Assembly: GCF_024267655.1 (NCBI RefSeq)
Contig: NZ_CP100595.1
Span: 1,178,001-1,242,000, forward strand
Direction of reading: 5' to 3'
Source of the DNA: Arcobacter roscoffensis
GTDB taxonomy: Bacteria; Campylobacterota; Campylobacteria; Campylobacterales; Arcobacteraceae
Length of the DNA stretch: 64,000 nt
Shown here: positions 1-62,382 of the stretch, one piece after another
How positions within the stretch are numbered: position 1 is the stretch's first letter
Layout of the letters: the number at the start of each line of letters is the position of its first letter
Translations under genes and position numbers: made by a program
The notes under the pieces: generated by a model
Told to the model about the DNA's origin: nothing
The model's database searches: none
The model's input: only the letters and a program-made list of their open reading frames with translations

Positions 1-1
1 G

Positions 2-43000: not shown

Positions 43001-46000
43001 GTGACAGGTGATATATTACTTCAAGCAATAGGAGCTACTTCAGATATCACAATAGGAGCAGCCTTATTAAGTACAACTGGAAATATATCACTAAATGCAG
43101 GAAGAAGTGTAAATCTAAATTCTAATGTGACAACTAATGGAAATAGTAAAACAGTAGATATATTGGCAAATGATTCAATAACAATGATAGATGGAACTAC
43201 TATCCAAACTAATAATGGTAATATCATTTTAGATGCAACTGCAGGAAGTGTAACAATAGACAGCGTAAATGCAGGAACAGCAGATATAGCTACTTATGCA
43301 GGGACTAGTATTTCTGATATAGATGAGAGTTCTTTAATTACAGCAAATGATTTATTATTAAAATCAGGAAGCACAATAGGAACAGGAATAAACCACTTAA
43401 ATACAACAGTAGATAACTTAACTGTAAATAGTGGAGATAATACATTTTTAACAGAATCAACAGATATAAATATAGATAGTGTTGATGTGGAAATAAATAG
43501 AGTAGATTCTACAGGAGTAGCGACACCTACTACAAGTCATGCAACACAAAGTGATATAAATTCAAGTGGAGCATTGGTACTACAAACACAAGATGGAAGT
43601 ATCACAACTATAGTAAATGATGGAGATATAATAACAGGTGGGAATACACTGTTAAAAACATCAGAAATAGCAGAGGGAAGTAGTAGCGATTCAGATATTA
43701 CACTAGGTGGAAGTATAAGTATCACAAATGGAAATATAAGTATTTCATCAAGTGATAATGTAAATATCAATAATAATATCATTTCAAATACAATAAATAA
43801 AACAATAGATGTTTTAGCAAGTAGTAATATAACAATGATAGATGGAACAAGTGTTACAAGTAGTGATGGAAATATCAGCTTTGAAGCAAATACTGGAAAT
43901 GTAATAAGTGAAACTATTAACGCTGGAACTGGTGCAGTAGCAATAAAAACAGCAGGAACAATAAATGATATAGATTCTTCTTCTTTAATTACAGCACAAA
44001 GCTTACTAATAGATGCTCTAGGAAAAGTAGGAACAACTACTAATCATATAAATACAAATATCACAACATTAAGCGCAAATGCAGGAGCAGGTTTATATAT
44101 CACAGAAAATGATGGTGTTTCAATTGATAGTGTAGATGTAGAGGTAAATAGAGTTGCAAATACAGCAATAGCAACAGAAACAACAAATGATGCACAAGAA
44201 AAACTAATCTCAACAGAAAAACTAGTATTAGTTGCAACTTTAGGAAATATAGAGGTAACAAGTAATAGTTCAAATGATGTAAGCTCAAATGGTGATACTT
44301 TAATTAGTGCATTAGATGGAGCTGTTACATTAAGTGATGATTTAATAACAGGAACTGGAAACTTAAGTATCTTAGCAAATACAACATTTGCACAAAATTC
44401 AAATATTACAACTGCTGGAACTGTAGATGTAGAAGCAAATACTTCAATTACAATGGTAGATGTAATTACTAATGCAAATGATTCAAATATTAGATACTCA
44501 ACAAGTGGTGAAATAAGTTTAGCTCAATTAACAACAAGTGCAGATGTTTCAATCATAGCAGGTTCAGTAAGTGATAGTAATGCAGATACAAATAATATCA
44601 CAGCAGATGAGTTAAGATTAGAAGTTATAGGTTCAACAGGTGTTGGAACAAATCATATAGAAACAGATGTAAATACTCTAAGTTCAAATGGTGGAAGCTT
44701 ATTTGTAACAGAAGCAAATGATATAACAATAAACCAAACAAGCCAAATAGTAGTTCAAAGAGTTGGAAGTGATACAACACTAACAACAACAAACACAACA
44801 GATACAACACAAAGTGATATAAATTCAAGTGGAGCATTGGTACTACAAACACAAGATGGAAGTATCACAACTATAGTAAATGATGGAGATATAATAACAG
44901 GTGGGAATACACTGTTAAAAACATCAGAAATAGCAGAGGGAAGTAGTAGCGATTCAGATATTACACTAGGTGGAAGTATAAGTATCACAAATGGAAATAT
45001 AAGTATTTCATCAAGTGATAATGTAAATATCAATAATAATATCATTTCAAATACAATAAATAAAACAATAGATGTTTTAGTAAGTAGTAATATAACAATG
45101 ATAGATGGAACATCTGTTACAAGTACAGATGGGAATATCAGCTTTGAAGCAAATACTGGAAATGTAATAAGTGAAACTATTAACGCTGGAACTGGTGCAG
45201 TAGCAATAAAAACAGCAGGAACAATAAATGATATAGATTCTTCTTCTTTAATTACAGCACAAAGCTTACTAATAGATGCTCTAGGAAAAGTAGGAACAAC
45301 TACTAATCATATAAATACAAATATCACAACATTAAGCGCAAATGCAGGAGCAGGTTTATATATCACAGAAAATGATGGTGTTTCAATTGATAGTGTAGAT
45401 GTAGAGGTAAATAGAGTTGCAAATACAGCAATAGCAACAGAAACAACAAATGATGCACAAGAAAAACTAATCTCAACAGAAAAACTAGTATTAGTTGCAA
45501 CTTTAGGAAATATAGAGGTAACAAGTAATAGTTCAAATGATGTAAGCTCAAATGGTGATACTTTAATTAGTGCATTAGATGGAGCTGTTACATTAAGTGA
45601 TGATTTAATAACAGGAACTGGAAACTTAAGTATCTTAGCAAATACAACATTTGCACAAAATTCAAATATTACAACTGCTGGAACTGTAGATGTAGAAGCA
45701 AATACTTCAATTACAATGGTAGATGTAATTACTAATGCAAATGATTCAAATATTAGATACTCAACAAGTGGTGAAATAAGTTTAGCTCAATTAACAACAA
45801 GTGCAGATGTTTCAATCATAGCAGGTTCAGTAAGTGATAGTAATGCAGATACAAATAATATCACAGCAGATGAGTTAAGATTAGAAGTTATAGGTTCAAC
45901 AGGTGCTGGAATAAATCATATAGAAACAGATGTAAATACTCTAAGTTCAAATGGTGGAAGCTTATTTGTAACAGAAGCAAATGATATAACAATAAACCAA

Positions 46001-49000
46001 ACAAGCCAAATAGTAGTTCAAAGAGTTGGAAGTGATATAACACTAACAACAACAAACACAACAGATGCAACACAAAGTGATATAAATTCAAGTGGAGCAT
46101 TGGTACTACAAACACAAGATGGAAGTATCACAACAGTAGTAAATGATGGAGATATAATAACAGGTGGGAATACACTGTTAAAAACATCAGAAATAGCTGA
46201 GGGAACAAGTAGTGATTCAGATATAACATTAGGTGGAAGTATAAGTATCACAAATGGAAATATAAGTATTTCATCAAGTGATAATGTAAATGTAAATAAT
46301 AATATCATTTCAAATACAATAAGTAAAACAATAGATGTTTTAGCAAGTAGTAATATAACAATGATAGATGGAACAAGTGTTACAGGTAGTGATGGAAATA
46401 TCAGCTTTGAAGCAAATACTGGAAATGTAATAAGTGAAACTATTAATGCAGGAACTGGTGATGTGATAATAAATGCAGGAGATAAAATATCAAATATAGA
46501 TAATAACTCTTTAATTACAGCAGATAAATTATTATTAAATACAGGAAACTCTATAGGAAGTTCTTCAAATCATATAAATACAACTATAAATTCATTAAGT
46601 GCAAAAGCAGATACTAATGATGTAGATACAACAGATGATAATGATATTTTTGTTACAAATACACAAGCTTTAATTATTGATAGTATTACTATAGATATAA
46701 ATAGAGTTGATACTAGTGCAACCATAGATACAGATACTACAGGAACAACACAAGAAGATATCTCAACTAGTGATAACGGAAATATTGTAATAAAAGCAAG
46801 TGATATTACACTTGAGGGTGGAAGTGATACTATAGGATTAAATACACTTGGAACAGGAAATGTAAAACTAAATGCAACTTCTGGAAATATTACATTAAAT
46901 GATAATGTAAATGCTGGAAGTGGTGACATAACAGTTTTAGCTGGTACAAGTATCATCCAATCAGGAGATATTTTAACTACAGATGGAACAGTGGAACTAG
47001 AAGCAACTGCTGGTTCAATTAGTATGGGTGATGGTGTAAAAACAAGTTCAAATGAAAACATAAGATATGAAGCATCTACAAGCTTGTCTCTTGGATTGAT
47101 AACTACAAGTAAAAATGTATCGCTAGTTGCAGGAACTATAACTGATAGTGCAGGCTTAGACACAAGTGATACAACAGTAGATATCCAAGCAAAAGAGCTA
47201 AGAGTTGAAACTACTGATTTATCAGGTGGATTGGGAATTGGTGCTAACCATATAGAAACTACAGTTGAAGTAATAAGTGTAAAAACTGGAACAAGTGGAG
47301 CATTTATAAGTGAGACTGATGATGTTTTAGTTGATGAAGTTGAAGATACAGAAGATTCATCAGATGGAATAAGTGTAAATAGAGTACTAGATACAGCAGT
47401 AGTAACAGCTTCAATAATAACTGATGCAAGTCAAAGTGATATAGTAACTAGTGGAGATTTAGTACTACAAACATTAGACGGAAGTATTACAACAGTATCA
47501 GATAGTGGAGATATAAGTACTGGTGGAAACACACTTTTAAAAACTATAGATGAAGATGATAAAGAGGATAATATTAATATTAACTCTAATATAACTTCAT
47601 TAAGTAATATCTCAATTGTCTCAGCTCAAAACTTCAACTTAGCAGCAAATGCAAAAGTTGAATCTACGGGTGTAAACTCTACAATAGATATTTTTATAAG
47701 TAGTGTTGATGGAGATGTATCCCTAGAAGATACAAGTTCTATTGTTTCAAATGATTCAAATATTAGAGTAAAAGCAGATGATATTAAGCTTTCATCAATA
47801 GATGCTGGAACTGCTTCGATTTCTCTTTATGCACTTGGAAATATACTTGATAATGGAGATACAACTACAGATTTAGTTTCAAAAAATTTAAGAGTTTTTG
47901 CACAAAATGGTGGAGCAGGAAATGACACTACAACAATAAATAGCTTAGATATTGATGCTGATAATATCACTGCAAATATAGGTGTAAATGGTATTTATAT
48001 AGAAGACTTAGATGATTTAACAGTTACATATATTGATGATATTAATGTAAATAATGTAAACTCACAAGCTTTAGTTTTATCTCAAAGAACAGATGAAATC
48101 CAAGAAGATATTAAAACTAAAGATAGTGGTGTTATTTCGATTACTACAGATAGTACTTTAACTATCAAAGAAGGAGAGTTAGTAAACCCTTCAACAAATG
48201 CAAATACAGATGATGGCTTAGGAATAAGTGGAAGTGATAATATAGTATTAAACTCTACAAGTGGAAATATTGATATTCAAAGTGGTATTACATCGTCATC
48301 TGGAGATATTACAATAAATGCTCAAACATCTATTTCTCAAACTGGGAAAATAGAAGTACAAGGTTTAAATAACTTACTTAAAGTTACAACACAAACTGGA
48401 AGTATTGTGATGAATGATGACTCTATTATAAAAGCAGTTGATTCAACTACTCAAATAGAGCTAAATTCAGCTGCAAATATTGAAGTAGAAACAATTGAAA
48501 GTTTAGGGCAAGTAAGTATAACTGCAGGAGGGAACTTAACTGATATAGACTTAACTGGTGATAGTGAAGTAGATATTACAGCAGTAGATTTAATCTTGAA
48601 TGTTACTAATGAAATAGGTTCATTAGATAATAACATCGAAACAGATATTACTACAATTGAATCTACTTCAAGTAACTTATACTTAGATGAAACAGATGAT
48701 TTATTTGTAAATAGTATCACAGGAACACAAGTAAATTTAACAGCAAATAAAATAACAGATGGAACAAATACAAGCATCCAAGCGACAACATTAACAGTAA
48801 ATGCAAATGAAATAGGTGAAAGTAATAATCACCTAAATACAGATGTAAATACAATGAATGTAACAGTAGAAAATGACACAGTATACTTAACAGAAAAAGA
48901 CGCAATCACAATAAATATAGATAAATTACTAGGTGAAATAAAAGCAACAGAGCTAACAGTAAATGCAAATGAAATAGGAGAAAATACAAATCACCTAAAT

Positions 49001-50455
49001 ACAGATGTAAATACAATGAATGTTACAGTAGCAAATGATACAGTATACCTAACAGAAAAAGATGCAATCATAATAACTATCGATAAATTATTAGGTGAAA
49101 TAAAAGCAACAACATTAACAATAAATGCAAATGAAATAGGTGAAATAACAAATCACCTAAATACAGATGTAAATATAATAAATGTAAACGCTTCAAATAA
49201 TACAGTGTACCTAAGTGAAAAAGACTCTATCATTGTAAATAGTACTTCTTTATTCGGAACAATAGAAGCAAGTGATTTAACAATAAGCGCAAATAGTGTA
49301 GGTTCTACAGTAAATTACCTAAATACAAATGTAGATACACTAAATGCTCAAATAACTAATGATATTTACCTAATAGAAAATGATGATTTAAAAATAGATA
49401 CAGTAGATGCAATAAATATGTATGTAATCGCAAACTCAAATATAGAGAATAAAGATGTAAACTCATTAGTAAAAACAGATAAATTAATAATAGATGCTCT
49501 AAATGTAAACCTGAATACAGAAATAAAAACAATAAAAGCAAATGTAGTAAATGATATAACAATAAATGAAAAAGATAACCTACTAGGAACAATCATAGCA
49601 GAAGACTTAATCCTAGATGTAGCCTTCTCAACACTTCTAACAGATGTAGAGACAATGACACTTAACTCAAGTGACTCAATATATGTAACACAAATAGATG
49701 ATGTAATAGTAAAAGACTCAAATGCAATAAATATCCTAGCAATAGAAAGCTCAAATGGAGATCTATACTTAGATAAATTAACAGCAGAAACAGTAACAGT
49801 AAAAGTATCAGAAGATAAAAGAATACTAGATAATAATGATGAGTTAACAAATGTAGAGTCAGAAAACCTAAATATGCTAGGAAAAGGTGCATACACAGAA
49901 GGAAACTTAATAAACCCAGAAACAATAGAAACAATGGGACAAAAAGCTATAGAAATAGACACAACAAAGTTATATCTAGGGAATCATGATACAGCTAAAA
50001 TAAAAAATAATACAATAAATGATACAATGTACGGATTATTAATAGAAAGAGATAACTACTCGATGCAATATGTAGCTCAATCAGAATTTGAAAGAGAATT
50101 AACAGAGATAAATACGGAACTTTCAACAGGTATGGAAGATATTGTAATGTGGGAATTTGAAGCAGCAATAAATTATCAAAGTTTAAATCAATCAAGTAAT
50201 GTAAATAGTGCATATAATGAATATGTAGTAAGAAATACACAGATAACACAGAATGATAATATCAGAGCATTAAGAAGCTTTGAAGTACAGACTGTAAGTA
50301 CAGTAGCGGAGCATACAGTAATAATGCCAAGTGTAGAATATAGTACGTATACAAGTTCAATAGGATTTATAGATATAGAAAGAACAAGTAATAATATCTT
50401 GTTTGACTATGATGATGAAGAGTATGAGTTATGGACAGAAGATTTAGTTTTATAA
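40097..50455 (+). CDS. Giant LEPR-XLL-type repetitive protein, paralogue of the upstream giant
   Basis: Complete 3452-residue protein. The ATG follows AGGGA (40086-40090) by 6 bases and lies 18 bases after the previous stop. Residues 1-31 are very basic and have no Sec signal peptide. Residues 32-45 read IEPLESRTLLSADP, matching the LEPR-XLL motif known from the N-termini of very large bacterial repeat proteins. The rest is beta-helix-like repeats (GNI-x-L-x-A, SVSDID, TVNANEIGE types). From about 40.9 kb it is colinear with the upstream giant from about 31.8 kb, and its last ~560 residues are the same as that protein's. A 421-residue unit is present twice plus a third partial copy (43.5-46.45 kb). 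It has no RTX block or coiled-coil island, so it is a short version of its neighbour. Probably a secreted adhesin and a substrate of the export genes downstream; function is inferred. Confidence 0.92.
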   Translation: MKFNSRVIKRREKLLKQKKLKQMEQTESLYNIEPLESRTLLSADPVLGGAQAVLLLNNDQNTYSQTSYETIKNTLDDSDGSRTELLKDNTRLEALDSNNNKTVVLDIKEMLNADGTLETILFIDPLDLNDHIYLGTDGTTNTSAGIHLNAQLFEDIKNEFDTIVVGSVAGSNDFTVLGSGDGTANLELDDNLYIVSNPNNSTTNITSKLSFLNGNNLTTFVADVMTNKNTTYAAPIIVSGDEVYFNSDGYYDSSEEGIQFDDTINGSTSNDKLAILASGNMTFKDKIGDTNPLEHLSITGNNMNFDLEVITDGDFVITSTNGNILFNDSVTVNGNLYIEGANTIIFQNTLDVTGNIYLEGNEIDFANYVNKDVTFDANRTITLKPTDKSVNIEVSSPSKVGADYEDINSLNLSSTELGYLSEKFGKIIIGHEDGMDSYNDTTSTGHASSGLGDIILGQIGLFGSTFNDDVYLFGNNIIVDDNQNSSAILSVKDSIYFEAYNNIEIYNKVTTSNDISFYSVEGSISQKDYNEVDNDNRTGEYEFLDADNLTAVAKTGIDLSSIFVNNIDIKNTGNGDININIVDLKDDKGTSDTSDDTDIVNGYTYKKDVNVTALEQTDENGTGTTTLTTENGTITVLSSANSGRGITINSSETTTIESKDRDTSDSDDFDILVNNNIQTNDRNLYLVADKSITVADGIYTNSSNGGDIAYTAGLDIAVSIITTSSNVTLTAGGSVLDNLSGETSNILGTTTSLTITAEAGIGTSSDDIDTTVANITLTNGTSGDIYLQETDILEIKGITQSGSGVIDIVVDSGDINQTGNVTSTSGDISIEATSGNITMTAQKYTTSTSGNITYDANLNVNISILSTSSNITVTSGDAITDTLVSEDANIIADEVTLSAVNGIGTSEDNDIDTSVSTISLSNTTSGDIFIQEDNDLIISSINSQGSNADVVVTTENGSIETTNSITDSVTGDILLQAIGATSDITIGAALLSTTGNISLNAGRSVNLNSNVTTNGNSKTVDILANDSITMIDGTTIQTNNGNIILDATAGSVTIDSVNAGTADIATYAGTSISDIDESSLITANDLLLKSGSTIGTGINHLNTTVDNLTVNSGDNTFLTESTDINIDSVDVEINRVDSTGVATPTTSHATQSDINSSGALVLQTQDGSITTIVNDGDIITGGNTLLKTSEIAEGSSSDSDITLGGSISITNGNISISSSDNVNINNNIISNTINKTIDVLASSNITMIDGTSVTSSDGNISFEANTGNVISETINAGTGAVAIKTAGTINDIDSSSLITAQSLLIDALGKVGTTTNHINTNITTLSANAGAGLYITENDGVSIDSVDVEVNRVANTAIATETTNDAQEKLISTEKLVLVATLGNIEVTSNSSNDVSSNGDTLISALDGAVTLSDDLITGTGNLSILANTTFAQNSNITTAGTVDVEANTSITMVDVITNANDSNIRYSTSGEISLAQLTTSADVSIIAGSVSDSNADTNNITADELRLEVIGSTGVGTNHIETDVNTLSSNGGSLFVTEANDITINQTSQIVVQRVGSDTTLTTTNTTDTTQSDINSSGALVLQTQDGSITTIVNDGDIITGGNTLLKTSEIAEGSSSDSDITLGGSISITNGNISISSSDNVNINNNIISNTINKTIDVLVSSNITMIDGTSVTSTDGNISFEANTGNVISETINAGTGAVAIKTAGTINDIDSSSLITAQSLLIDALGKVGTTTNHINTNITTLSANAGAGLYITENDGVSIDSVDVEVNRVANTAIATETTNDAQEKLISTEKLVLVATLGNIEVTSNSSNDVSSNGDTLISALDGAVTLSDDLITGTGNLSILANTTFAQNSNITTAGTVDVEANTSITMVDVITNANDSNIRYSTSGEISLAQLTTSADVSIIAGSVSDSNADTNNITADELRLEVIGSTGAGINHIETDVNTLSSNGGSLFVTEANDITINQTSQIVVQRVGSDITLTTTNTTDATQSDINSSGALVLQTQDGSITTVVNDGDIITGGNTLLKTSEIAEGTSSDSDITLGGSISITNGNISISSSDNVNVNNNIISNTISKTIDVLASSNITMIDGTSVTGSDGNISFEANTGNVISETINAGTGDVIINAGDKISNIDNNSLITADKLLLNTGNSIGSSSNHINTTINSLSAKADTNDVDTTDDNDIFVTNTQALIIDSITIDINRVDTSATIDTDTTGTTQEDISTSDNGNIVIKASDITLEGGSDTIGLNTLGTGNVKLNATSGNITLNDNVNAGSGDITVLAGTSIIQSGDILTTDGTVELEATAGSISMGDGVKTSSNENIRYEASTSLSLGLITTSKNVSLVAGTITDSAGLDTSDTTVDIQAKELRVETTDLSGGLGIGANHIETTVEVISVKTGTSGAFISETDDVLVDEVEDTEDSSDGISVNRVLDTAVVTASIITDASQSDIVTSGDLVLQTLDGSITTVSDSGDISTGGNTLLKTIDEDDKEDNININSNITSLSNISIVSAQNFNLAANAKVESTGVNSTIDIFISSVDGDVSLEDTSSIVSNDSNIRVKADDIKLSSIDAGTASISLYALGNILDNGDTTTDLVSKNLRVFAQNGGAGNDTTTINSLDIDADNITANIGVNGIYIEDLDDLTVTYIDDINVNNVNSQALVLSQRTDEIQEDIKTKDSGVISITTDSTLTIKEGELVNPSTNANTDDGLGISGSDNIVLNSTSGNIDIQSGITSSSGDITINAQTSISQTGKIEVQGLNNLLKVTTQTGSIVMNDDSIIKAVDSTTQIELNSAANIEVETIESLGQVSITAGGNLTDIDLTGDSEVDITAVDLILNVTNEIGSLDNNIETDITTIESTSSNLYLDETDDLFVNSITGTQVNLTANKITDGTNTSIQATTLTVNANEIGESNNHLNTDVNTMNVTVENDTVYLTEKDAITINIDKLLGEIKATELTVNANEIGENTNHLNTDVNTMNVTVANDTVYLTEKDAIIITIDKLLGEIKATTLTINANEIGEITNHLNTDVNIINVNASNNTVYLSEKDSIIVNSTSLFGTIEASDLTISANSVGSTVNYLNTNVDTLNAQITNDIYLIENDDLKIDTVDAINMYVIANSNIENKDVNSLVKTDKLIIDALNVNLNTEIKTIKANVVNDITINEKDNLLGTIIAEDLILDVAFSTLLTDVETMTLNSSDSIYVTQIDDVIVKDSNAINILAIESSNGDLYLDKLTAETVTVKVSEDKRILDNNDELTNVESENLNMLGKGAYTEGNLINPETIETMGQKAIEIDTTKLYLGNHDTAKIKNNTINDTMYGLLIERDNYSMQYVAQSEFERELTEINTELSTGMEDIVMWEFEAAINYQSLNQSSNVNSAYNEYVVRNTQITQNDNIRALRSFEVQTVSTVAEHTVIMPSVEYSTYTSSIGFIDIERTSNNILFDYDDEEYELWTEDLVL
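42280..43540 (+). repeat. Diverged copy of the 33.24-34.50 kb segment of the first giant gene
   Basis: The encoded sequence from 'NVTLTAGGSVLDNLSGETSNIL' onward aligns along its length with the first giant from about 33.23 kb ('SVTLTAGASVLDNLSG...'). Shared blocks include TSLTITA, TSGDIYLQETD, ITIGAALLSTTGNISLNAGR and SVDVEVNRV-like text. Differences are spread throughout, unlike the near-identical repeats. Confidence 0.85.
43548..46455 (+). repeat. 1263-bp (421-residue) tandem repeats in the second giant gene
   Basis: The 'AAAGTGATATAAATTCAAGTGGAGC' landmark lies at 43548, 44811 and 46074, exactly 1263 bases apart. There are two full units and a partial third, which ends near 46455 at 'SETINAGTGD'. 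The copies differ at scattered single bases only (for example GCAAGTAGT against GTAAGTAGT near 43816/45079). Confidence 0.93.
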
Positions 50456-52636: not shown

Positions 52637-53128
52637 ATGACAAAAGAGATTTTTAGAGTATTTAGATTTTTTTCTTTTGTATTTATAGTATTGTTTTTTA
52701 GTGCTTGTGGAGGTGGTGGTGGCACTAGCTCCTCAAGTGTAGATACAAATATGCAAAAGATAGATGGAAAATGGGACCCATATTTTAGTGATAAAAGATT
52801 TTTAGCCAATCAAAATGGTGACTTTGTAGGTCAAGCTACTTGGTATGAAGAAAAACTAAAAGATGATGGTTCTGTAGATGCAGACGCTGAAGGTGAAATG
52901 ACTTTTATTTTTAATTCTAAAGGTGAAGTATATTTAAGTATTGAAATTTTAGAACCTATAAAAGTAGGAGAATATGACATAGATAGTCAAGGAAGAGAAT
53001 TAACAATTAGTTCATTGAAAGTTATTTATGAATTAGTTGAAAACGCAGGACAAAATTGTGTAAAAGTTAGTAAGCTAACAAATGGTAATTTTGACTCATA
53101 TTATAACTTATGTCAAAAATTTAATTAG
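52637..53128 (+). CDS. Small lipoprotein of unknown function
   Basis: 163 residues, starting 4 bases after the previous stop with no strong ribosome site, so translation is probably coupled. The signal has charged residues, then FFSFVFIVLFFSAC with lipidated Cys24, then GGGGG and a Ser-rich linker, like the preceding lipoprotein. The mature part begins 'QKIDGKWDP' and holds short alternating hydrophobic strands with acidic turns (GEMTFIFNSKGEVYLSIE), suggesting a small beta-barrel or lipocalin-like fold, which is only a guess. Two cysteines near the end (NCVKV and NLCQ) may pair. It is probably exported to the outer membrane and works with the neighbouring secretion genes. I do not recognise a family. 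Confidence 0.8.
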   Translation: MTKEIFRVFRFFSFVFIVLFFSACGGGGGTSSSSVDTNMQKIDGKWDPYFSDKRFLANQNGDFVGQATWYEEKLKDDGSVDADAEGEMTFIFNSKGEVYLSIEILEPIKVGEYDIDSQGRELTISSLKVIYELVENAGQNCVKVSKLTNGNFDSYYNLCQKFN

Positions 53129-53144
53129 AGTATTAAGGGGAGTG

Positions 53145-54701
53145 ATGAAAAAAGTTATAACAATATGTTGTATAGGACTTCTATCATCAGTTTGGGCTTC
53201 AAATGAGCCTAAAACTATTGATGTGGATATAAAAAGTATGATTGTGGAAGTTGTAAAGAGAAATTCAAATATCATCTTTGATAGAATGCAAGATCAGATT
53301 ATTGAATCTCAAATTAAACTAGAAGAATCTGGTTTTGATCCTACTTTTTATGTAAATATTACAAAACAAAGAACAGATGTACCAAATGGTGTTGATGAAA
53401 AATCAACAAGAGGCTATTTAAACGACTATGAAGAAAATCTCCAATCCCAAGAAATGGGAATAAAAGGTGTCACTTCAATTGGTTCACAATGGAGTCTATC
53501 TCTTACAAGTTCTGCAAAACAAAGTAATTTAATCAATAAATATCAAAGTGATTATGATACAGAGTTTAGAAAAGGAATAAAGCTAAGTCTTGTTCAGCCC
53601 TTACTTAAAGGTTTTGGTGAACATGGAGCTATGGGAAAAGTAAATTTAGCTAAGGCTGAAAGAAAAATATACTCTAAAAAATCTCAAAAAAATATTTCAG
53701 ATGTTATGGGCGGTACAATTCAAAGTTATTGGAAATACTACTCTGCTAAACAGTTAAAAGAAAGCTATAAAAGCTCACTAGATTTTAATGAAAAAATCAC
53801 AAAACTACTTGAAAAGAAATTTGAAGCTGGTGAAATACCTTATTCAGAAGTTTTAGAAGCAAAAAGTTCAGGTCTTATTAGACAAGCTCAACTAAAAAAA
53901 ATAGATAGTGAAATCAAAAAATACAAAAATGATTTTTTCTCACTTTTAAATGTATCTACTTATAATACTCAAGATATTGATTTTAATCTATTAGAAAATC
54001 CAAGTATTGATGAAAATGAAAAAGTACTGAGCTTACAAGCATACTTTGAAAAAGCACTTGAAATTTGGCCAGAATTTCAAATAGCAAAAAATAAACTTGA
54101 AAAAGAGTTATTACAGATTAAAATCACTGAAAATTATGTAAAACCACAGTTAGATTTAATCACTAGTGCATCAAGTGGTACTTTAACAAATACTTTTAAA
54201 GATAGAGTTTATGATGATGAACATATATCTTGGAGTGTAGGATTACAATATTCAGGTTCTTTATATAATAATCAAGCAATAAATGCTTTAAGAATCGCAA
54301 AATTAAAAGTAAATCAAATCAAACTAGAACTTGATACTTTAAAAAAAGGCTTATACAACGCTATTGATACAAAACTTGAATCATACAATAACTCAAAAGA
54401 AGAAGTTGAGTTTTATAAAGATAGTTTAGAAATCAAAAAAAGATTATTAGCTGATACAAAAAAAGCCTTTAATTTTGGAGAAAAAAGTATAAAAGATGTT
54501 ATTGTTCAAGAAGATGATTTGATTGAATATCAGAATAAATTTTTTAATAGACTAATAGACTTTAAGTTATCAAAAGCATCTTTAGATAAAGCTATTGGAG
54601 AGTTATTTAATAAATACTTATCAATGGAAGAAATCGAAAGATTAAAAGTTTCAAATGTTAGAAATGAATTATCAAAAGAAAGTTTTGGAGTTATAAGATA
54701 A
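53145..54701 (+). CDS. TolC-family outer-membrane efflux/secretion channel
   Basis: 518 residues. I place the start at 53145: it has a strong ribosome site (AAGGGGAG, 53135-53142) and gives a clean signal peptide, MKKVITICCIGLLSSVWA then SNEP. An in-frame ATG at 53082 would overlap the previous gene and ruin the signal. The mature protein has the two-part TolC pattern: long amphipathic helices with A/K/E heptads (around ELKKIDSEIKKYKNDF and the LEKELLQIKITENYVKPQLDL transition), strands such as ISWSVGLQYSGSLY, and a second helical hairpin ending near FNRLIDFKLSKASLDKAIGEL. The family forms trimeric channels through the outer membrane and periplasm. It is 16 bases after the lipoprotein gene and abuts the adaptor gene, so it is likely the exit duct for the giant proteins. 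Confidence 0.9.
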   Translation: MKKVITICCIGLLSSVWASNEPKTIDVDIKSMIVEVVKRNSNIIFDRMQDQIIESQIKLEESGFDPTFYVNITKQRTDVPNGVDEKSTRGYLNDYEENLQSQEMGIKGVTSIGSQWSLSLTSSAKQSNLINKYQSDYDTEFRKGIKLSLVQPLLKGFGEHGAMGKVNLAKAERKIYSKKSQKNISDVMGGTIQSYWKYYSAKQLKESYKSSLDFNEKITKLLEKKFEAGEIPYSEVLEAKSSGLIRQAQLKKIDSEIKKYKNDFFSLLNVSTYNTQDIDFNLLENPSIDENEKVLSLQAYFEKALEIWPEFQIAKNKLEKELLQIKITENYVKPQLDLITSASSGTLTNTFKDRVYDDEHISWSVGLQYSGSLYNNQAINALRIAKLKVNQIKLELDTLKKGLYNAIDTKLESYNNSKEEVEFYKDSLEIKKRLLADTKKAFNFGEKSIKDVIVQEDDLIEYQNKFFNRLIDFKLSKASLDKAIGELFNKYLSMEEIERLKVSNVRNELSKESFGVIR

Positions 54702-55505
54702 ATGAAAAGATTAATATATATGGCTTGTATTTGTACTACATTTTTACAAGCTCAGGAGTTATTAGCTCCTTTAACAGGAATAGTTAAACCTATTTATGAA
54801 GGTAAAATTGGTATTTCAACAGAAGGTAAGGTTGATAAGGTTTATTTAAAAGAGGGTGATAGTGTAAAAAAAGGTCAGGTTATTTTATCTTTAGATAGTA
54901 ACTTACAAAAACTAGAAACGCAAAGACGAAATCTTCTATTAAAAGATAAAACTCAATTAAACTCACTAAAAAAGAATATTGTTGTAATTGAAGATATTTT
55001 AAATAAAAAACAAAAACTTTACAATGAAACAAAATCAATTAGTTTAAATGAACTAAATCAATTAAAAATGCAATACACAAATACAAAAGCAGAATTAAGT
55101 TCACTAATTATAAATGAAAAAAAAGAGTATATAGAGTATCAAATTTCTAAAAATGTATTGGATTATTATAAACTAAAATCACCTGTAAGTGGTGTGATTA
55201 CAAAAATTGAACCTAAAATTGGTGAATGGGTTCAAGTAGGGAAAGAAATAGTTCAAATTATTGATATTGATACTTGTTTTGTTGAAGTTGATTTAACAAC
55301 AAGCGATTTACAGCAATTATCTGTAAACTCAAAAGTAGATGTGGAAATTTCAAATGGAAAGGAAACATTTATTAAAGAGGGAACTGTATCATTTATTTCA
55401 GCTATGGCTGATAGTTCAAGTGGATTAATTAGAGCAAAGATAGACTTTGATAATAAAGATAAAAAAGCTATTCCTGGATTAACTGCAAATGTTATTTTAA
55501 AGTAG
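54702..55505 (+). CDS. Periplasmic adaptor protein, HlyD/RND-MFP type (short)
   Basis: 267 residues; the ATG directly follows the TAA of the channel gene, with GGAG 11 bases upstream inside that gene. MKRLIYMACICTTFLQA is a signal peptide, so the protein is probably periplasmic rather than anchored. Residues ~25-70 (EGKVDKVYLKEGDSVKKGQVILSLD) form the first half of a lipoyl domain, ~70-155 a coiled-coil hairpin, and ~158-190 (LKSPVSGVITKIEPKIGEWVQVG) the second half. A beta-barrel part follows, ending 'IPGLTANVILK'. Adaptors of this family join an inner-membrane pump to TolC. It lacks a membrane anchor and is short for the family, so it probably works together with the two larger HlyD-like proteins downstream. 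Confidence 0.88.
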   Translation: MKRLIYMACICTTFLQAQELLAPLTGIVKPIYEGKIGISTEGKVDKVYLKEGDSVKKGQVILSLDSNLQKLETQRRNLLLKDKTQLNSLKKNIVVIEDILNKKQKLYNETKSISLNELNQLKMQYTNTKAELSSLIINEKKEYIEYQISKNVLDYYKLKSPVSGVITKIEPKIGEWVQVGKEIVQIIDIDTCFVEVDLTTSDLQQLSVNSKVDVEISNGKETFIKEGTVSFISAMADSSSGLIRAKIDFDNKDKKAIPGLTANVILK

Positions 55506-55511
55506 AGCTGA

Positions 55512-57392
55512 ATGGAAGTTAGTAAGAGTAAAAAAACAGACACAATTGAGATATTAAATAGTTTAACAAATTTGAGAAACTCTTCTTTAGAAGAAGAAGA
55601 GTTTTGGTTTGAGTATTTAGAATCTATATCTTTACTTACAAAAAGTAATCTAAGCTTTATTGTAAAAAAAGATGAAGAGCTTACTCTTTTTCAAGAGTAT
55701 GATGATGCTTCAATAGATGATATAAGTAAAGATAGTATTTATAATAATATAAGTTCATTAGTTCAAAGGTCTTCACAAAATACTTATGCTTATGAAAAAT
55801 CAAATTTTCAAAATAGACATATAGTAGCTATTAAAATAGATAGTATAGAAGAAAAAAGTGAATTTTTTCTTTGTTTTTTAATAGAAAACAATAACAAAAA
55901 TGAGTTTACAAATGTAATATTAAGAGCTATCTTATGTAAAGATGTTCCTTTTGCATATTTTAATAATAAGAATAAATCAAAAGCAGTTGAAGTATACCAA
56001 TCAAATGATATGAATGACATAGATGAACAGGAAGAAAATGATTTAACTTCAGTTGTTGAACTTATAAACTATATTGTAAGTGAAAATAAATTTAAACTAT
56101 CAATTATGAAACTAGTAGATGAACTATGTACTAGATACAACGCAAATAGAGTATCAATTGGTTGGGAATTTAATCAATATGTAACTCCTAAAGCCATAAG
56201 TCATGTGGAGGATTTTTTAAAATCAAGTTACAGTTCAAAGGCTTTAGAAGCTATTTATGAAGAAGCTTATGAACAAGATAGTGAAATATTTTATCCTGAG
56301 GATAAAGATAGTGATTTAATTACAAATGCTCATAAAATATATCTAAAAGATAACAAGCTTTTAAATTTATATACCTTTCCTATTAGACTTGAAGATGAGA
56401 TCATAGGTGTTATTAGTTTAGAGTTTAAAGAGAGTGAGTTGTCATTTTCTAGTTTAGAAACTATTAGATTAGCTCTAAATTTAATTGCACCAATTTTAAA
56501 TAATATTTATACTCATGATCAAAATATTTTTAAAAAATCTTTAGTTAAAACTGAAAAAATGTCTAAAAACTTTTTTGGACCACAAAAAAGTTTATTGAAG
56601 TTATCAACTATTTTAGTATCAATTCTTTTTTTATGGATTATATTTGGAAAACTTGAATATAAAGTTGAGTCTGTAACTAATCTTCAAACAGATAATATAT
56701 CTTATGTTTCAGCACCTTTTGATGGAATAGTGCAAGAAGTTTTTGTAGACTCAGGAGATGATGTTGAAAAAGGAAAAAAACTTTTAGCTTTTGATGACAA
56801 AGAAATGATTTTAAAAAAATTAGAGATTAATGCTGATCTTATTAGATACGATACAGAAGCAGAAAAGGCTAGATCTCAAAGAAAACTTGCAGATATGCAA
56901 ATCGCACTTGCAAAAAAAGAGCAATCAGAAGCAAACCTAAAAAAGCTAAATTACTTTCTGGAAAAAGCAGAGCTTAAATCACCTTTTGATGGTATTATCA
57001 TCGAAGGAGATAAAGAAAAACTACTTGGAAGTCCTTTCTCAAAAGGTGATATTTTAATTCAAATAGCTAAACCTACTGATTTATATGCAAAACTAAAGGT
57101 TCAAGAAGAGTATATTGATGAAATAAAAGTAGGTCAAATAGCTGAACTTAACCTTTTAAGTAGACCACATGAATACTTTAATGTAAAAGTAGAAAAGATA
57201 ATTCCAATGGCAAATGTTGATGATGAAAATGGAAATGTTTTTACAATTAAAGTAGTTTTTTTAGATGAAGTAAAACCTTGGATGAGACCTGGTATGAGTG
57301 GTATTGCAAAGATTAAAATTGAGCAAAGACCTGTTTATTGGATATTAACTCATAAAATCTCTGACTTTTTACATATGCATGTATGGTGGTAA
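55512..57392 (+). CDS. GAF-domain/HlyD fusion: membrane-anchored adaptor with a cytoplasmic sensor-like half
   Basis: 626 residues, 6 bases after the previous gene. Residues 1-355 are soluble and have no signal; 190-335 resemble a GAF domain (IMKLVDELCTRYNANRVSIGW ... TFPIRLEDEIIGVISLEF), and 20-150 may be a second, decayed one. One membrane helix spans 361-379. The rest is an HlyD-type adaptor: lipoyl half (400-430, APFDGIVQEVFVDSGDDVEKGKKLL), short coiled coil (432-485), second lipoyl half (487-520) and a beta-barrel (525-603, ending 'RPGMSGIAKIKI'), then a tail ending HMHVWW. So the N-terminal half faces the cytoplasm and the adaptor half the periplasm. The GAF half could sense a small ligand or dock the SecA-like ATPase; neither is shown. 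An unusual fusion within an export operon. Confidence 0.85.
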   Translation: MEVSKSKKTDTIEILNSLTNLRNSSLEEEEFWFEYLESISLLTKSNLSFIVKKDEELTLFQEYDDASIDDISKDSIYNNISSLVQRSSQNTYAYEKSNFQNRHIVAIKIDSIEEKSEFFLCFLIENNNKNEFTNVILRAILCKDVPFAYFNNKNKSKAVEVYQSNDMNDIDEQEENDLTSVVELINYIVSENKFKLSIMKLVDELCTRYNANRVSIGWEFNQYVTPKAISHVEDFLKSSYSSKALEAIYEEAYEQDSEIFYPEDKDSDLITNAHKIYLKDNKLLNLYTFPIRLEDEIIGVISLEFKESELSFSSLETIRLALNLIAPILNNIYTHDQNIFKKSLVKTEKMSKNFFGPQKSLLKLSTILVSILFLWIIFGKLEYKVESVTNLQTDNISYVSAPFDGIVQEVFVDSGDDVEKGKKLLAFDDKEMILKKLEINADLIRYDTEAEKARSQRKLADMQIALAKKEQSEANLKKLNYFLEKAELKSPFDGIIIEGDKEKLLGSPFSKGDILIQIAKPTDLYAKLKVQEEYIDEIKVGQIAELNLLSRPHEYFNVKVEKIIPMANVDDENGNVFTIKVVFLDEVKPWMRPGMSGIAKIKIEQRPVYWILTHKISDFLHMHVWW

Positions 57393-57397
57393 GATAG

Positions 57398-59548
57398 ATG
57401 CAAGGTAGTGTTTTTAGTGAACAGTGGTTTAAAGTTGCAAAACTTAATGTATCACTTAATAGTTCAAGTTATATAAAAAAACAGTTTTATAGAGGTCAGA
57501 AATGGTATGTAATTGAAGATAGTTTTAACAATCAATTTTTTAGAGTTAGAGAAGAGGCTTATAGATTTTTAGCTAGACTTGACTCTTCTAAAACTGTTGA
57601 AGAGATTTGGGAAGAGTCTTTAAAAGATGAGTCCTCTCACACTCCAACTCAAGATGAAGTTATATCATTACTAACAAGTCTACACCATAAAAATCTTTTA
57701 TATTTTAAAAATAAAGCAAATACTGAACAACTTTTAAATAGAGCAGAACTAAAGCATAATAAAAAGATGAAAACTAAAGTTTTTTCTTTTTTATATTTTA
57801 AAGTACCATTATTTGACCCAGATAGATTTCTTGATAAAACAAGACCTTTTACTGAAATAGTTTTTTCAAAAATAGGTGCTATTGTATGGTTTATAGTAAT
57901 TGCACTGGGAATAAAATACTCTATTGAAAACTTTTCATCTTTATATGATCAAACACAAGGAATGTTATCTCCTAATAAGCTTTTCTTACTTTATATTTCA
58001 ATCATAATATTAAAAACCTTACATGAATTTGGTCATTCAATGATGGTTAAAAAATTTGGTGGAAAAGTAAATGAAATGGGTGTAATGATACTTGTTTTTA
58101 CACCAATACCATATATGGATGCTACGCAAAGCTGGCTTTTTAGATCAAAATATCAAAGAGCGCTAGTTGGTGCTGCTGGTATGATAGTAGAGCTTTTTAT
58201 AGCAGCAATTGCAGCTATTGTTTGGGCAAATACAGGTGATGGTATAGTTAATAGTATTGCTTTTAATATGATGATTATAGGGTCTGTTTCAAGTATCTTT
58301 TTTAACGGTAACCCTTTATTAAGGTTTGATTCATACTTTATTTTATCTGACCTTTTAGAAATACCAAATCTTTACGAAAACTCTAAAAAACAATGGTATT
58401 ATTTAGTTGAAAAGTATATTTTTAAACTGGAATATGTAGTAAATCCAAGTCAGTCTTTAAGGGAAGCATTTTGGTTATGTACTTATTCTGTTTTAAGTTT
58501 TTTCTATAGACTCTTTGTTGCTTTTTTAATTGCTCTTTTTGTAGCAGATCAATGGTTTTTTCTTGGTGTTTTAGTAGTTTTAATATCTTTGTATATGTGG
58601 ATTTTGAAACCTTGGTATGAATTTTTTAAGTACTTATTTACTAGTAATAAGTTACAAAAAACAAGATTAAAAGCAATATCAATAACGACTTTTGTAATAG
58701 CTACAATATTTATAATAATTGCAGTGATACCATTTCCTTTTTCATTAAAAGCAAACGGTATTGTAATGACTGATAACTATCAAAATATATTTTTAAAAAC
58801 TGATGGATATTTAAATAAAATACATGTAAAAAATGGTGAGTTTGTCAACCAAGGTGATGTCTTACTAAGTTTTGTAAATAAAGAGTTAGATTTTGAAATA
58901 CAAAGTGTAGATGCTTCAATAAAAGAAACAAAAGCTTATATGGTAAAAGCAAGAACAAGTGCAAAAGCTGATATGAATGCTATTAACAATCAAATAAATT
59001 TATTAAAAGACAAATTAAAATATTTGGAAGAGAAAAAAGATAAACTTTTTATAAAAGCAGATAAAAGTGGATATTTTATTCATCAAGAGATAAAAAATAA
59101 AGAAAATACTTGGTTTCAAATGGGACAAAAAATTGGAATGATACTTCCTAATAAGAAGACGCATTTTCAAGCAGTAATTCCTCAAGAAGAGTCTTTTAAT
59201 ATCTTTACTAATCAAGTTTACAATGGAAGTTTAAAACTTCATGGTTTAAATGAATACAAAATTAGTGTTAGTGAAATTAGAGTTATTCCATATCAAAAGC
59301 AAGAGCTTCCGTCTGCTGCACTTGGTTGGCTTGGTGGTGGTGATATTGCTGTATCACAAAAAGATAATTCAGGTACAAAAACAAAAGAGAGTTTTTTTGA
59401 GGTTAAAGCAAATATTACAAATAAACAAAAGTTTGTTTTACAACATGGAAGATCAGGTGTTCTAAAAATAAAACTAGAGCCAAAAACTTTAGTTGAAAGA
59501 ATAGTAACAAATGCTAAACAGATTTTACAAAAACATTATAAGATTTAA
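57398..59548 (+). CDS. PqqD-like/M50 metalloprotease/HlyD-arm membrane protein
   Basis: 716 residues, 5 bases after the previous stop. Residues ~30-103 resemble a PqqD-like winged helix (RiPP recognition element; YVIEDSFNNQFFRVREEAYRFL ... TVEEIW ... VISLLTSLHHKNLL). A multi-pass part runs ~155-450, with the zinc motif HEFGH at 209-213 and the NGNPLLRFDSYF motif at 303-314 supplying the third ligand Asp311; this is the site-2 protease (M50) arrangement of the YydH-like peptide metalloprotease family. A last membrane helix (~428-447) leads to a HlyD-like periplasmic arm (453-500 lipoyl half, coiled coil 505-550, then 'KADKSGYF' and a barrel). The zinc residues are intact, so it may be an active protease. 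In place of an ABC protein, it could be the inner-membrane core that receives the giant substrates. Domains are seen; the role is inferred. Confidence 0.87.
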   Translation: MQGSVFSEQWFKVAKLNVSLNSSSYIKKQFYRGQKWYVIEDSFNNQFFRVREEAYRFLARLDSSKTVEEIWEESLKDESSHTPTQDEVISLLTSLHHKNLLYFKNKANTEQLLNRAELKHNKKMKTKVFSFLYFKVPLFDPDRFLDKTRPFTEIVFSKIGAIVWFIVIALGIKYSIENFSSLYDQTQGMLSPNKLFLLYISIIILKTLHEFGHSMMVKKFGGKVNEMGVMILVFTPIPYMDATQSWLFRSKYQRALVGAAGMIVELFIAAIAAIVWANTGDGIVNSIAFNMMIIGSVSSIFFNGNPLLRFDSYFILSDLLEIPNLYENSKKQWYYLVEKYIFKLEYVVNPSQSLREAFWLCTYSVLSFFYRLFVAFLIALFVADQWFFLGVLVVLISLYMWILKPWYEFFKYLFTSNKLQKTRLKAISITTFVIATIFIIIAVIPFPFSLKANGIVMTDNYQNIFLKTDGYLNKIHVKNGEFVNQGDVLLSFVNKELDFEIQSVDASIKETKAYMVKARTSAKADMNAINNQINLLKDKLKYLEEKKDKLFIKADKSGYFIHQEIKNKENTWFQMGQKIGMILPNKKTHFQAVIPQEESFNIFTNQVYNGSLKLHGLNEYKISVSEIRVIPYQKQELPSAALGWLGGGDIAVSQKDNSGTKTKESFFEVKANITNKQKFVLQHGRSGVLKIKLEPKTLVERIVTNAKQILQKHYKI

Positions 59549-59555
59549 GTAGTCT

Positions 59556-61511
59556 ATGAAAAAAGCTAGAAAAAACATAATAAAAATAAAAGAAAAAGAG
59601 TTACATGAAGGCTTAGATTATTACTATAATCTAATTCTTGGTAAGATAAATAAATTTAAATATAGACCTTCAAACTTAAAAAAAGATGCTTTATTTGTAC
59701 ATAAAACTTCTTTAGAGTTTCAAAAATTAGCTCAAGAAGAATTAGATAAAAAAATAGAATTAATTCAGACTCTTTTTAGATTAAACAAACAAAAAGAAAA
59801 AGATGTTTTAGAAGCCTTTGCTTTGTGTGTAGAGGCTTGTTTTAGAATCACAGCTAAAAGAGCCTATGTTGTACAGATAATGGGAGCAATTGCTTTATAT
59901 AAGAAGTTTATTATCGAGATGTCTACAGGTGAGGGTAAAACTCTAACTGCGGCTATTGCTGCTGGGGTTTTAGGTTGGCTTGGTAAACCTATACATATTT
60001 TTACTTCAAATGATTATCTAGCTGCAAGAGATGCTGAACTTTTTGAAGAGTTCTATAATAGTATTGGATTAACATGTTGTTCAATTACTTCTTCAAATTC
60101 TCCTGAGGAAAGAAAAAAACTTTATGAATCAAATATAGTTTATACAACAGGGAAAGAGGTTTTAGCAGATTTTCTAAAAGATAGAATGAAAGAAGATTCT
60201 TCTTTTGATTTTAATAAATACTTAATTGATAAAGTAAGTGGAAAACTAAATGAAAATGATTATGCATTAAGAGGTTTAGAAATAGCGATAATTGATGAGG
60301 CTGATAGTGTTTTAGCCGATGATGCTGTTACTCCTTTGATTATTTCTGCTACGGCTGAAAATAAGGTTTTACAAAAGTCAGTTGTTGATGCTTATAAAAT
60401 AGCTTCATTATTAAAAAAAGATGAAGATTATAAAATTAGTGAAAAGTTTAATGACATAACTCTTACAAAAAGTGGTATCAAAATAGTTGAAGAAAATAGT
60501 TTTGAACTAAACGAGATATGGAAAGTTAAACATAGAAGAGAGTATCTTGTAAAGCAAGCTTTAACAGCAAGAGAATTATATCTTTTAAATAAACACTACA
60601 TTATAAAAGAAGGTAAAGTTGTAATCGTTGATGAAAAGACTGGTAGAATTATGGAACACCGATCGTGGGGAAATGGACTACATCAGGCTATTGAAGTAAA
60701 AGAAGGCTTAGGGATTACAGATCCAACTACTACTTTTGCAAAAATGAGTTTTCAAAGGTTCTTTAGATTATATACTCATTTATGTGGGATGAGTGGAACT
60801 TTAAAAAATCTTGATAATGAATTTTGGCAAATTTATGAAATATCTATACTAAAAATACCTACACGAGTTCCTTCAAAAATGATTATTAAAAAAGATGAAT
60901 TCTTTTTAGATGAAAATAAAAAAAATACTAAGATAATAGAATATATAAATTCATTAAATAAAAAAGGAATTCCTGTATTAATAGGTGTTACTTCTATTAA
61001 AGATAGTGAAAACTTAGCTAAAGAACTTAAAAAAATAGGTTTACAAAGTAAAACTTTAAATGCCTTACATGACGAAGATGAGGCAAATATTATTTCTCAA
61101 GCAGGACAAAAAGGTTCAATTACGATTGCTACAAATATGGCTGGTCGTGGAACAGATATTGATATAAGTGAAGAAATAAACTCTTTAGGTGGTCTCCATG
61201 TAATCACAACTCAAAGGGATAAATCAAGAAGAATTGATTTACAGTTTTTTGGAAGATGTGCTAGACAAGGAGAGAATGGAGTGGCTGTTGCTTTTTTAAG
61301 TTTAGATGACTTAATTATAAAACATTATTTACCAGCTTGGTTAAGAGAGTTTTTCTTAAAAAACTTTAATTCAAAACTAATAAAAAAAATAGCTTGGTTA
61401 TTTTATGTTTTTTATCAAAAAAAGATAGAAAAGGATATTTCAAATATTAGAAATAAAACACTACTTCAAGAGTTTAATTTAAAAAATTCTATGTCTTATA
61501 CTTTAGACTAA
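59556..61511 (+). CDS. SecA-like ATPase lacking the helical scaffold and C-terminal regions
   Basis: 651 residues (typical SecA is 800-900), 7 bases after the previous gene. Walker A is EMSTGEGKT at 121-129, the Walker B motif is IIDEAD at 245-250 (DEVD in most SecA), and the cross-linking part is recognisable (IVDEKTGRIMEHRSWGNGLHQA, 357-378). Motor domain 2 has TNMAGRGTDI (526-535) and FGRCARQG (565-572, arginine finger). Homology stops near LSLDDLIIKHYL (581-592); the helical scaffold with its two-helix finger, the wing and the zinc-binding tail are missing. Only ~60 residues follow, hydrophobic then basic. This is a paralogue, not the housekeeping SecA. Operon position points to energising export by the M50/HlyD/TolC proteins. 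Substrate and partner are inferred. Confidence 0.9.
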   Translation: MKKARKNIIKIKEKELHEGLDYYYNLILGKINKFKYRPSNLKKDALFVHKTSLEFQKLAQEELDKKIELIQTLFRLNKQKEKDVLEAFALCVEACFRITAKRAYVVQIMGAIALYKKFIIEMSTGEGKTLTAAIAAGVLGWLGKPIHIFTSNDYLAARDAELFEEFYNSIGLTCCSITSSNSPEERKKLYESNIVYTTGKEVLADFLKDRMKEDSSFDFNKYLIDKVSGKLNENDYALRGLEIAIIDEADSVLADDAVTPLIISATAENKVLQKSVVDAYKIASLLKKDEDYKISEKFNDITLTKSGIKIVEENSFELNEIWKVKHRREYLVKQALTARELYLLNKHYIIKEGKVVIVDEKTGRIMEHRSWGNGLHQAIEVKEGLGITDPTTTFAKMSFQRFFRLYTHLCGMSGTLKNLDNEFWQIYEISILKIPTRVPSKMIIKKDEFFLDENKKNTKIIEYINSLNKKGIPVLIGVTSIKDSENLAKELKKIGLQSKTLNALHDEDEANIISQAGQKGSITIATNMAGRGTDIDISEEINSLGGLHVITTQRDKSRRIDLQFFGRCARQGENGVAVAFLSLDDLIIKHYLPAWLREFFLKNFNSKLIKKIAWLFYVFYQKKIEKDISNIRNKTLLQEFNLKNSMSYTLD

Positions 61512-61647: not shown

Positions 61648-62382
61648 ATGAGAATAGTTTTTATTTTTATTATGTCTTTTGCATTTATCTATGCAAATAC
61701 TACTATTGATTCTTTTAGTAAGTCAAAAAAGCTTCTAAAGAAAATATACAAAGGTAATCAAATTACTTTTTATGCAGAATGTAAGTACAACTACAAAGAT
61801 AAATCAAATATGATTGATAGAAGTTCATGTGGTTATACTCCAAGAAATGAGTACACTAAAAAAGGTAATCAAAACAAAAGAGCTAGAAGAATAGAATGGG
61901 AACATGTAATTCCTGCTCAGAACTTTGGTAGACAGTTTTCTTGTTGGTATGAGGGTGATTCGCAATGTATAAAGCAAAATGGAAAGTCTTACAAAGGAAG
62001 AAAGTGCTGCACTAAAGTAAATCAAAAGTACAAGTATATGCAAGCTGATTTACATAATCTTGTACCTGCAGTTGGTGAACTAAATGCCGATAGATCAAAC
62101 TTTAGATTTTCACAAATCGAAGGTGAAAGAAGATGGTATGGAAAAGATGTGGATTTTGAGGTGGACTTTAAAAGAAGAGTTGTTGAGCCTAGAGATGAGA
62201 TAAAAGGAAATATCGCTAGAACATACTTCTATTTTGAAAAGACTTATGGTATGAAAATCTCACAAAAAGATAAGAAGATATTAGAAGTTTGGAACAGACT
62301 TGACCCAGTAGATAAGTGGGAAAGTCAAAGAAACAAACTAATAGAGAAAATTCAAGGCAATAAAAATGAGCTCATTGATTAA
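61648..62382 (+). CDS. Secreted endonuclease I family nuclease
   Basis: 244 residues. GGAGAG (61639-61644) precedes the ATG by 3 bases. The signal peptide is MRIVFIFIMSFAFIYA, so the enzyme goes to the periplasm or outside. The endonuclease I (EndA/Dns) signature is clear: RIEWEHVIPA at 81-90, with His86 the expected general base, and DLHNLVPAVGELNADRSN at 134-151, which supplies the metal-binding Asn and neighbours. Six cysteines in the mature protein (45, 61, 99, 107, 120, 121) may form disulfides, and 'KCC' is unusual. These enzymes cut single- and double-stranded DNA non-specifically. The AT-rich gap before it and its unrelated function separate it from the export operon, though degrading extracellular DNA could tie in with surface adhesins. 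Confident in family, not in biological role. Confidence 0.92.
   Translation: MRIVFIFIMSFAFIYANTTIDSFSKSKKLLKKIYKGNQITFYAECKYNYKDKSNMIDRSSCGYTPRNEYTKKGNQNKRARRIEWEHVIPAQNFGRQFSCWYEGDSQCIKQNGKSYKGRKCCTKVNQKYKYMQADLHNLVPAVGELNADRSNFRFSQIEGERRWYGKDVDFEVDFKRRVVEPRDEIKGNIARTYFYFEKTYGMKISQKDKKILEVWNRLDPVDKWESQRNKLIEKIQGNKNELID

Follow-up and report, generated by a model that had tools for sequence, protein, structure and literature searches.

A PqqD-like/M50/HlyD fusion protein as a candidate inner-membrane hub for the export of LEPR-tagged giant proteins

A compact operon with two giant genes

The window analyzed here, i.e., the whole stretch of 64,000 nucleotides, carries a compact operon on the + strand in the order giant 1, giant 2, TolC, adaptor, GAF-HlyD, fusion protein, and SecA-like ATPase. 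Giant 1, a proposed substrate, lies partly inside the window (1..40078, +), as its 16,201-aa frame starts upstream at ~G000:C1:1169500. The second proposed substrate, giant 2, follows at 40097..50455 (+) and comprises 3,452 aa. Both giants resemble repetitive surface proteins and carry a LEPR-XLL tag, which in giant 2 (…NIEPLESRTLLSADP; 40187..40237, +) scores 19.7 bits and in giant 1 (EIEPLEQRTLLSADP) reaches the better score of 28 bits. The last 560 residues of the two proteins (C-termini at 40078 and 50455) are identical, a sequence feature pointing to a recent duplication or gene conversion. Two lipoprotein-like genes in the same direction (50506-52632 and 52637-53128) lie between the giants and TolC; neither gave an informative family match.

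The remainder of the operon comprises, by profile matches, a TolC-family outer-membrane channel (OEP; 53082..54701, +), of which the true start is likely at an internal MKKVIT (about 53145), and a periplasmic adaptor of the RND_mfp family (267 aa; 54702..55505, +). These are followed by a 626-aa HlyD adaptor with a weak N-terminal GAF match (55512..57392, +; E 0.02-0.06), the fusion protein (57398..59548, +), and a 651-aa SecA-like ATPase (59556..61511, +). The latter has the architecture NBD1-PPXD-NBD2 with Walker A and helicase motifs, and is without most of the helical scaffold (HSD) with its two-helix finger, the helical wing (HWD), and the C-terminal linker; the match to SecA stops at residue 591 (equivalent to residue 549 of Bacillus subtilis SecA), after which 60 residues remain. 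No ABC transporter was detected in the operon with Pfam. The gene downstream of the operon (61648-62382) encodes a member of the endonuclease I family, of which the N-terminus is signal-like.

The operon has the composition of the SecA_DEAD/M50/GAF-HlyD locus described by Kamneva, Poudel & Ward 2015 (PMC4452313). According to that paper, this locus contains a SecA_DEAD protein, M50-HlyD, GAF-HlyD, a HlyD adaptor, and sometimes OEP, is without an ABC transporter, and has a role that is 'completely unknown'; Methylobacterium extorquens AM1 (META1p2399-2402) is among its carriers. The genome has a second operon (L004, G000:C1:203021-213586) with genes for TolC, an adaptor, a 1,469-aa DUF4347-cadherin protein (beginning with MKRNPLISALEPRVLFDGAA), and HlyD, as well as for a paralogue with 25-26% identity to the fusion protein in the window; a SecA-like gene is absent from this second operon.

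Domain structure of the fusion protein

The ORF of the fusion protein is complete at exactly 57398-59548 (+) and encodes 716 aa. The initial annotation had placed a PqqD-like recognition domain, an M50 protease, and a HlyD arm on this one polypeptide, and profiles, structural models, and the ORF itself all bear this out. Seven transmembrane helices are predicted within residues 158-443 from hydropathy and from an AlphaFold2 model built from 73 sequences (mean pLDDT 86.4). From the helix count, the protein is modelled as N-in/C-out with the PqqD-like domain (RRE) on the cytosolic side of the membrane and the arm on the periplasmic side, which agrees with recognition inside and hand-over outside. 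The HlyD/MexA-type adaptor arm (residues 445-703; 58730..59506, +) resembles the structures of MacA, MexA, and AcrA with Z 12-15, and contains Biotin_lipoyl/HlyD pieces according to Pfam. As Foldseek with the whole 716-aa model returned matches to the adaptor arm only, the RRE domain was modelled separately (pLDDT 85.8).

The RRE domain spans residues 6-105 (57413..57712, +), with β3 (46-50) and α3 (85-97) forming the putative leader groove. PF05402 scores the window protein alone at 16.2 bits, below the cut-off of 23.4, and matches 47 of 72 homologous domains, with a best E of 3.9e-8; a profile of the domain gave only two PqqD entries, both weak, as sequence matches in the PDB. In structural searches, the top Foldseek matches were the leader-bound RREs TbiB1 and lasso B1 (E 0.006-0.03, prob 0.99-1.00). 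VIA-align placed PqqD (5sxy) at Z 7.8 and gave Z 8-9 for winged-helix segments from other enzymes, so the fold similarity by itself is modest. Taken with the profile matches of the homologues, the modelled domain has a PqqD/RRE fold.

The pattern of conservation resembles that of known RREs, in which the leader sits as a strand between β3 and α3 and these two elements are better conserved than the remaining domain (PMC7470986, PMC12710340). Among type I homologues (defined below), the mean column entropy is low in the N-terminal stretch (1.13 bits), β3 (1.24 bits), and α3 (1.33 bits), and high in β1 (1.88 bits), α1 (1.64 bits), and α2 (2.15 bits); the structured core outside the N-terminal stretch, β3, and α3 ranges over 1.46-2.15 bits, which makes the β3/α3 groove one of the most conserved parts of the domain. 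The fusion protein thus shares with RRE/PqqD proteins both the fold and the conserved groove, and differs from them in that the domain is fused to a membrane protease-adaptor and that the ligand proposed for it is not a RiPP precursor but the secretion tag carried by giant proteins.

The M50/site-2-protease-like membrane core occupies residues 158-443 (57869..58726, +) according to Pfam and helix prediction; PF02163 (Peptidase_M50) scores 32.3 bits, above the cut-off of 27.2. Among the structural matches listed, there was no solved M50 structure, and the assignment of the core fold is based on sequence and motif. The zinc motif HEFGH (residues 209-213; 58022..58036, +) and the distal ligand D311, followed by S312 (58328..58333, +), lie within this core. 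H209, E210, H213, and D311 are unchanged in 79/79 type I homologues, of which the identity to the window protein is ~26-41%, and at position 312, 70 of them have G, 7 have A, and 2 have S. In type II, HExxH and Asp are kept in 9/9 members with both motifs readable; a tenth keeps HExxH, and its Asp motif was unmatched by the search pattern. The zinc ligands reported earlier for this protein are therefore intact, and the DS in place of the usual DG is real and judged harmless. Homologues with inactive zinc sites, named beforehand as an argument against the initial reading, were not found among the 79 type I proteins or, for HExxH, among the type II proteins checked. These invariant residues suggest that the core is proteolytically active.

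They also bear on a reading in which the M50 fold does not cut at all and instead serves as a conduit in place of an ABC permease, for which the SecA-like ATPase would provide the motor. Kamneva et al. 2015 proposed SecA as ATPase and M50 as pore (PMC4452313), and a locus without an ABC transporter and with an adjacent SecA-like gene fits such an arrangement. A pure pore would need neither HExxH nor the distal Asp, and their retention in 79/79 type I proteins, together with HExxH in the type II proteins checked, at ~30% identity makes a non-proteolytic pore improbable.

The closest NCBIfam match of the fusion protein is the daptide metalloprotease NF041824, with which the PqqD-like domain and M50 core align over residues 33-398. 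It may be argued from this match and from the presence of a PqqD-like domain that a small modified peptide is what the fusion protein trims and exports, with the giants as chance neighbors. The score of 155.7 bits is far below the family cut-off of 300, the fusion protein has a HlyD arm, neither daptide genes nor a modification enzyme were found among the annotated neighbors, and the LEPR tag co-occurs with the machinery genome-wide even where the two are unlinked. Membership in a daptide/RiPP system was rejected on the basis of the score and the absent modification genes, and such a peptide-maturation role is considered extremely improbable; the substrates proposed here are giant proteins. 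A defence-system reading was likewise rejected: PADLOC gave no match for the fusion protein or GAF-HlyD, and the SecA-like protein matched only DinG helicase, and weakly.

Distribution of the locus and its pairing with the LEPR tag

In a tree of 33 fusion proteins, two groups, here referred to as type I and type II, fall on opposite sides with a support of 100/100. A scan of genome contigs gave 80 type I loci, in Desulfuromonadales, Verrucomicrobiota and other PVC lines, Fibrobacter, Nitrospirota, Gemmatimonadota, Spirochaetota, and alpha-, beta-, and gammaproteobacteria. Plasmid records add loci of both types, and those of type II include Escherichia and Citrobacter. Of the type I loci with enough room for a SecA-like gene, 68/72 contain one, and the GAF-HlyD partner is present in 75/81 type I loci with room upstream. 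An ABC ATPase ORF was found in the examined stretch around the locus in 2/94 cases, ~5 kb away. A small DUF3467 gene recurs in type I cassettes upstream of GAF-HlyD (e.g., L010, L011, and L014). In public annotation, the SecA-like genes of L010 (14222-16138), L012 (15074-17098), and L011 (14130-16115) are labelled as prepilin peptidase or DEAD/DEAH helicase, which is probably a misannotation.

The LEPR-XLL profile (NF012209; cut-off 17 bits, near the N-terminus) was used to search for tagged proteins. In the 3.15-Mb genome that contains the window, a search at E up to 10 returned exactly three matches, i.e., giant 1 (28 bits), giant 2 (19.7 bits), and, from the second operon, the DUF4347 protein (20 bits); all three are above the cut-off and are encoded beside the two M50-HlyD operons. 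Matches above the cut-off, mostly in very long frames, were found in 42/50 sampled type I genomes and in 0/14 controls, and many of the LEPR giants are unlinked to the machinery. The other 8/50 type I genomes gave no match at this threshold, which may be due to MAG gaps or to drift of the tag.

The association was also assessed within single phyla. Across 195 Verrucomicrobiota genomes, LEPR was found in 13/15 genomes with a type I protein (including G527, counted from two contig fragments) versus 1/180 without (Fisher p 2e-17, with genomes treated as independent though related). In the same sample, 26 genomes with only other M50-HlyD homologues gave no LEPR match, and several genomes where no type I match was obtained (L153, L158) are type II with LEDRILFD tags. 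For 298 Campylobacterota genomes, real ORFs with LEPR were found in 3/4 genomes with the machinery versus 0/294 without, after two weak matches in 37- and 22-residue frames had been discarded (p 9e-7, again with related genomes treated as independent).

The form of the tag differs between the two groups. Among N-termini encoded beside the machinery, those of type I loci have the pattern LExR.LL[SAN][AGV] and those of type II loci have LExR.[LVM][FY]D[GA], and the tag form tracks the machinery clade in 31/31 cases; the chance of such a perfect split is 2e-8 if kinship is ignored, and one ancient divergence would suffice to produce it. The earlier suggestion that the giants carry a matching leader in their LEPR-XLL N-terminus is strongly supported by linkage, genome co-occurrence, and class-matched motif variants. 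Inheritance of the tag with the machinery across many phyla suggests, from sequence comparisons, that the tagged proteins are what this orphan export machine carries.

A basic region precedes the tag (mean net charge +3.6), which would also suit an ordinary Sec-type signal, with the co-occurrence reflecting joint inheritance of surface-protein islands and no recognition by the fusion protein. Most tagged N-termini are without a Sec h-region, the tag form matches the machinery clade in all 31 cases, co-occurrence holds for unlinked giants too, and the type I tag is absent from genomes of the same phylum in which all M50-HlyD homologues are of other kinds; a Sec-type explanation is very improbable.

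A putative route for giant surface proteins

It is considered somewhat probable that giant surface proteins with an N-terminal LExR tag have a dedicated secretion route, ABC-less and type-I-like, in which the fusion protein acts as the inner-membrane hub. The cytosolic RRE would bind the tag ([FY].[LI]E.LE.R.LLSAD) as a β-strand in the β3/α3 groove, and the truncated SecA-like ATPase encoded next door would feed the unfolded giant to the membrane. The M50 core, presumed active and open toward the cytosol, may then cut at or near the tag and help the chain across the membrane, after which the HlyD arm, GAF-HlyD, and the small adaptor would dock to TolC in a putative assembly that carries the chain out. 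The type II clade apparently does the same job without the SecA-like gene, using the tag form LExR.[LM]FD[GA]A.

A motor role for the SecA-like protein cannot be universal, since type II and the type I loci L014 and L079 are without the gene at the locus. Where the gene is missing from the locus, an unlinked copy exists in G308 and a copy broken over contigs in G541, and G335 has housekeeping SecA only; in seven genomes with type II and without type I, only the long housekeeping SecA was found.

The LEPR region has a median best 11-residue hydropathy of 1.5 and is without an S2P-like transmembrane substrate helix; this weak hydrophobicity would make intramembrane cleavage there unusual, and it leaves room both for the pore described above and for a retention role. 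LapG releases LapA-type adhesins by proteolysis, and the LapA/LapG system shares with the present one a giant adhesin, a TolC route, and possible N-terminal proteolysis, with an intramembrane M50 protease here versus the cysteine protease LapG. By analogy, the RRE/M50 part might hold the tag at the inner membrane while the giant is threaded through TolC as an anchored adhesin, to be cut by M50 when GAF-HlyD senses a signal. The invariant protease site, the likeness of the substrates to repetitive surface proteins, and the fusion of a GAF-type sensor to an adaptor at the locus (also in PMC4452313) are in line with this. Under such retention, the remainder of the chain would have to carry its own export signal, which was not found, RREs usually recruit and do not anchor, and the GAF similarity is weak (E 0.02-0.06), so that anchoring followed by release is regarded as unlikely.

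With the hub role in secretion as the preferred reading, the proposed system resembles canonical type I secretion (HlyB-HlyD-TolC) in its TolC channel, HlyD-type adaptors, and very large substrates. It differs from it in that the membrane protein is an M50 protease fused to an adaptor, without a linked ABC transporter, in the presence of a SecA-like ATPase, and in the position of the proposed signal, which is N-terminal here versus C-terminal. Its logic of leader recognition and cleavage is similar to that of bacteriocin ABC exporters with a C39 peptidase. There is an even chance that it represents a separate class of double-membrane secretion, in which an N-terminal LExR tag is recognized by an RRE that shares one polypeptide with an intramembrane protease and an adaptor arm, with a trimmed SecA motor in one clade and another source in the second. 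Proteins that rank among the largest in bacteria would leave the cell by this route in many phyla, and the tag variant and the machinery clade would have diverged together.

PMC4452313 names no substrate, LEPR, giants, or PqqD/RRE domain, its title does not include the Campylobacterota, and, as far as the available text goes, it has no account of a type II cassette without SecA. LEPR-XLL is mentioned in passing in earlier literature, and no description of its link to the machinery was found in the literature searched, which had preprints and most subscription journals outside its scope. The LEPR-XLL tag, identified here by sequence comparison, is thus a candidate for the link missing from the 2015 description, and the pairing gives that locus a candidate cargo, i.e., LEPR giants with frames up to ~20,000 residues. 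It also supplies a signal peptide and an enzyme that can both be tested, and two natural classes between which parts could be swapped. If true, RRE domains, known from peptide natural products, would be extended to protein secretion. The gene set is widespread and appears to export enormous surface proteins.

In the Verrucomicrobiota sample, the fusion proteins of L157 and L159 form a third branch beside type I; no tagged giant was seen near either locus, and this branch is possibly another class with another signal. Among plasmid records, 18 from Escherichia and 8 from Citrobacter match the fusion protein. An IncF plasmid of Escherichia coli (L017, NZ_CP081687.1) carries a complete type II cassette, similar to those on other Escherichia/Citrobacter plasmids, with a ~4,460-aa Ig-like protein tagged LESRQLFDGAA.
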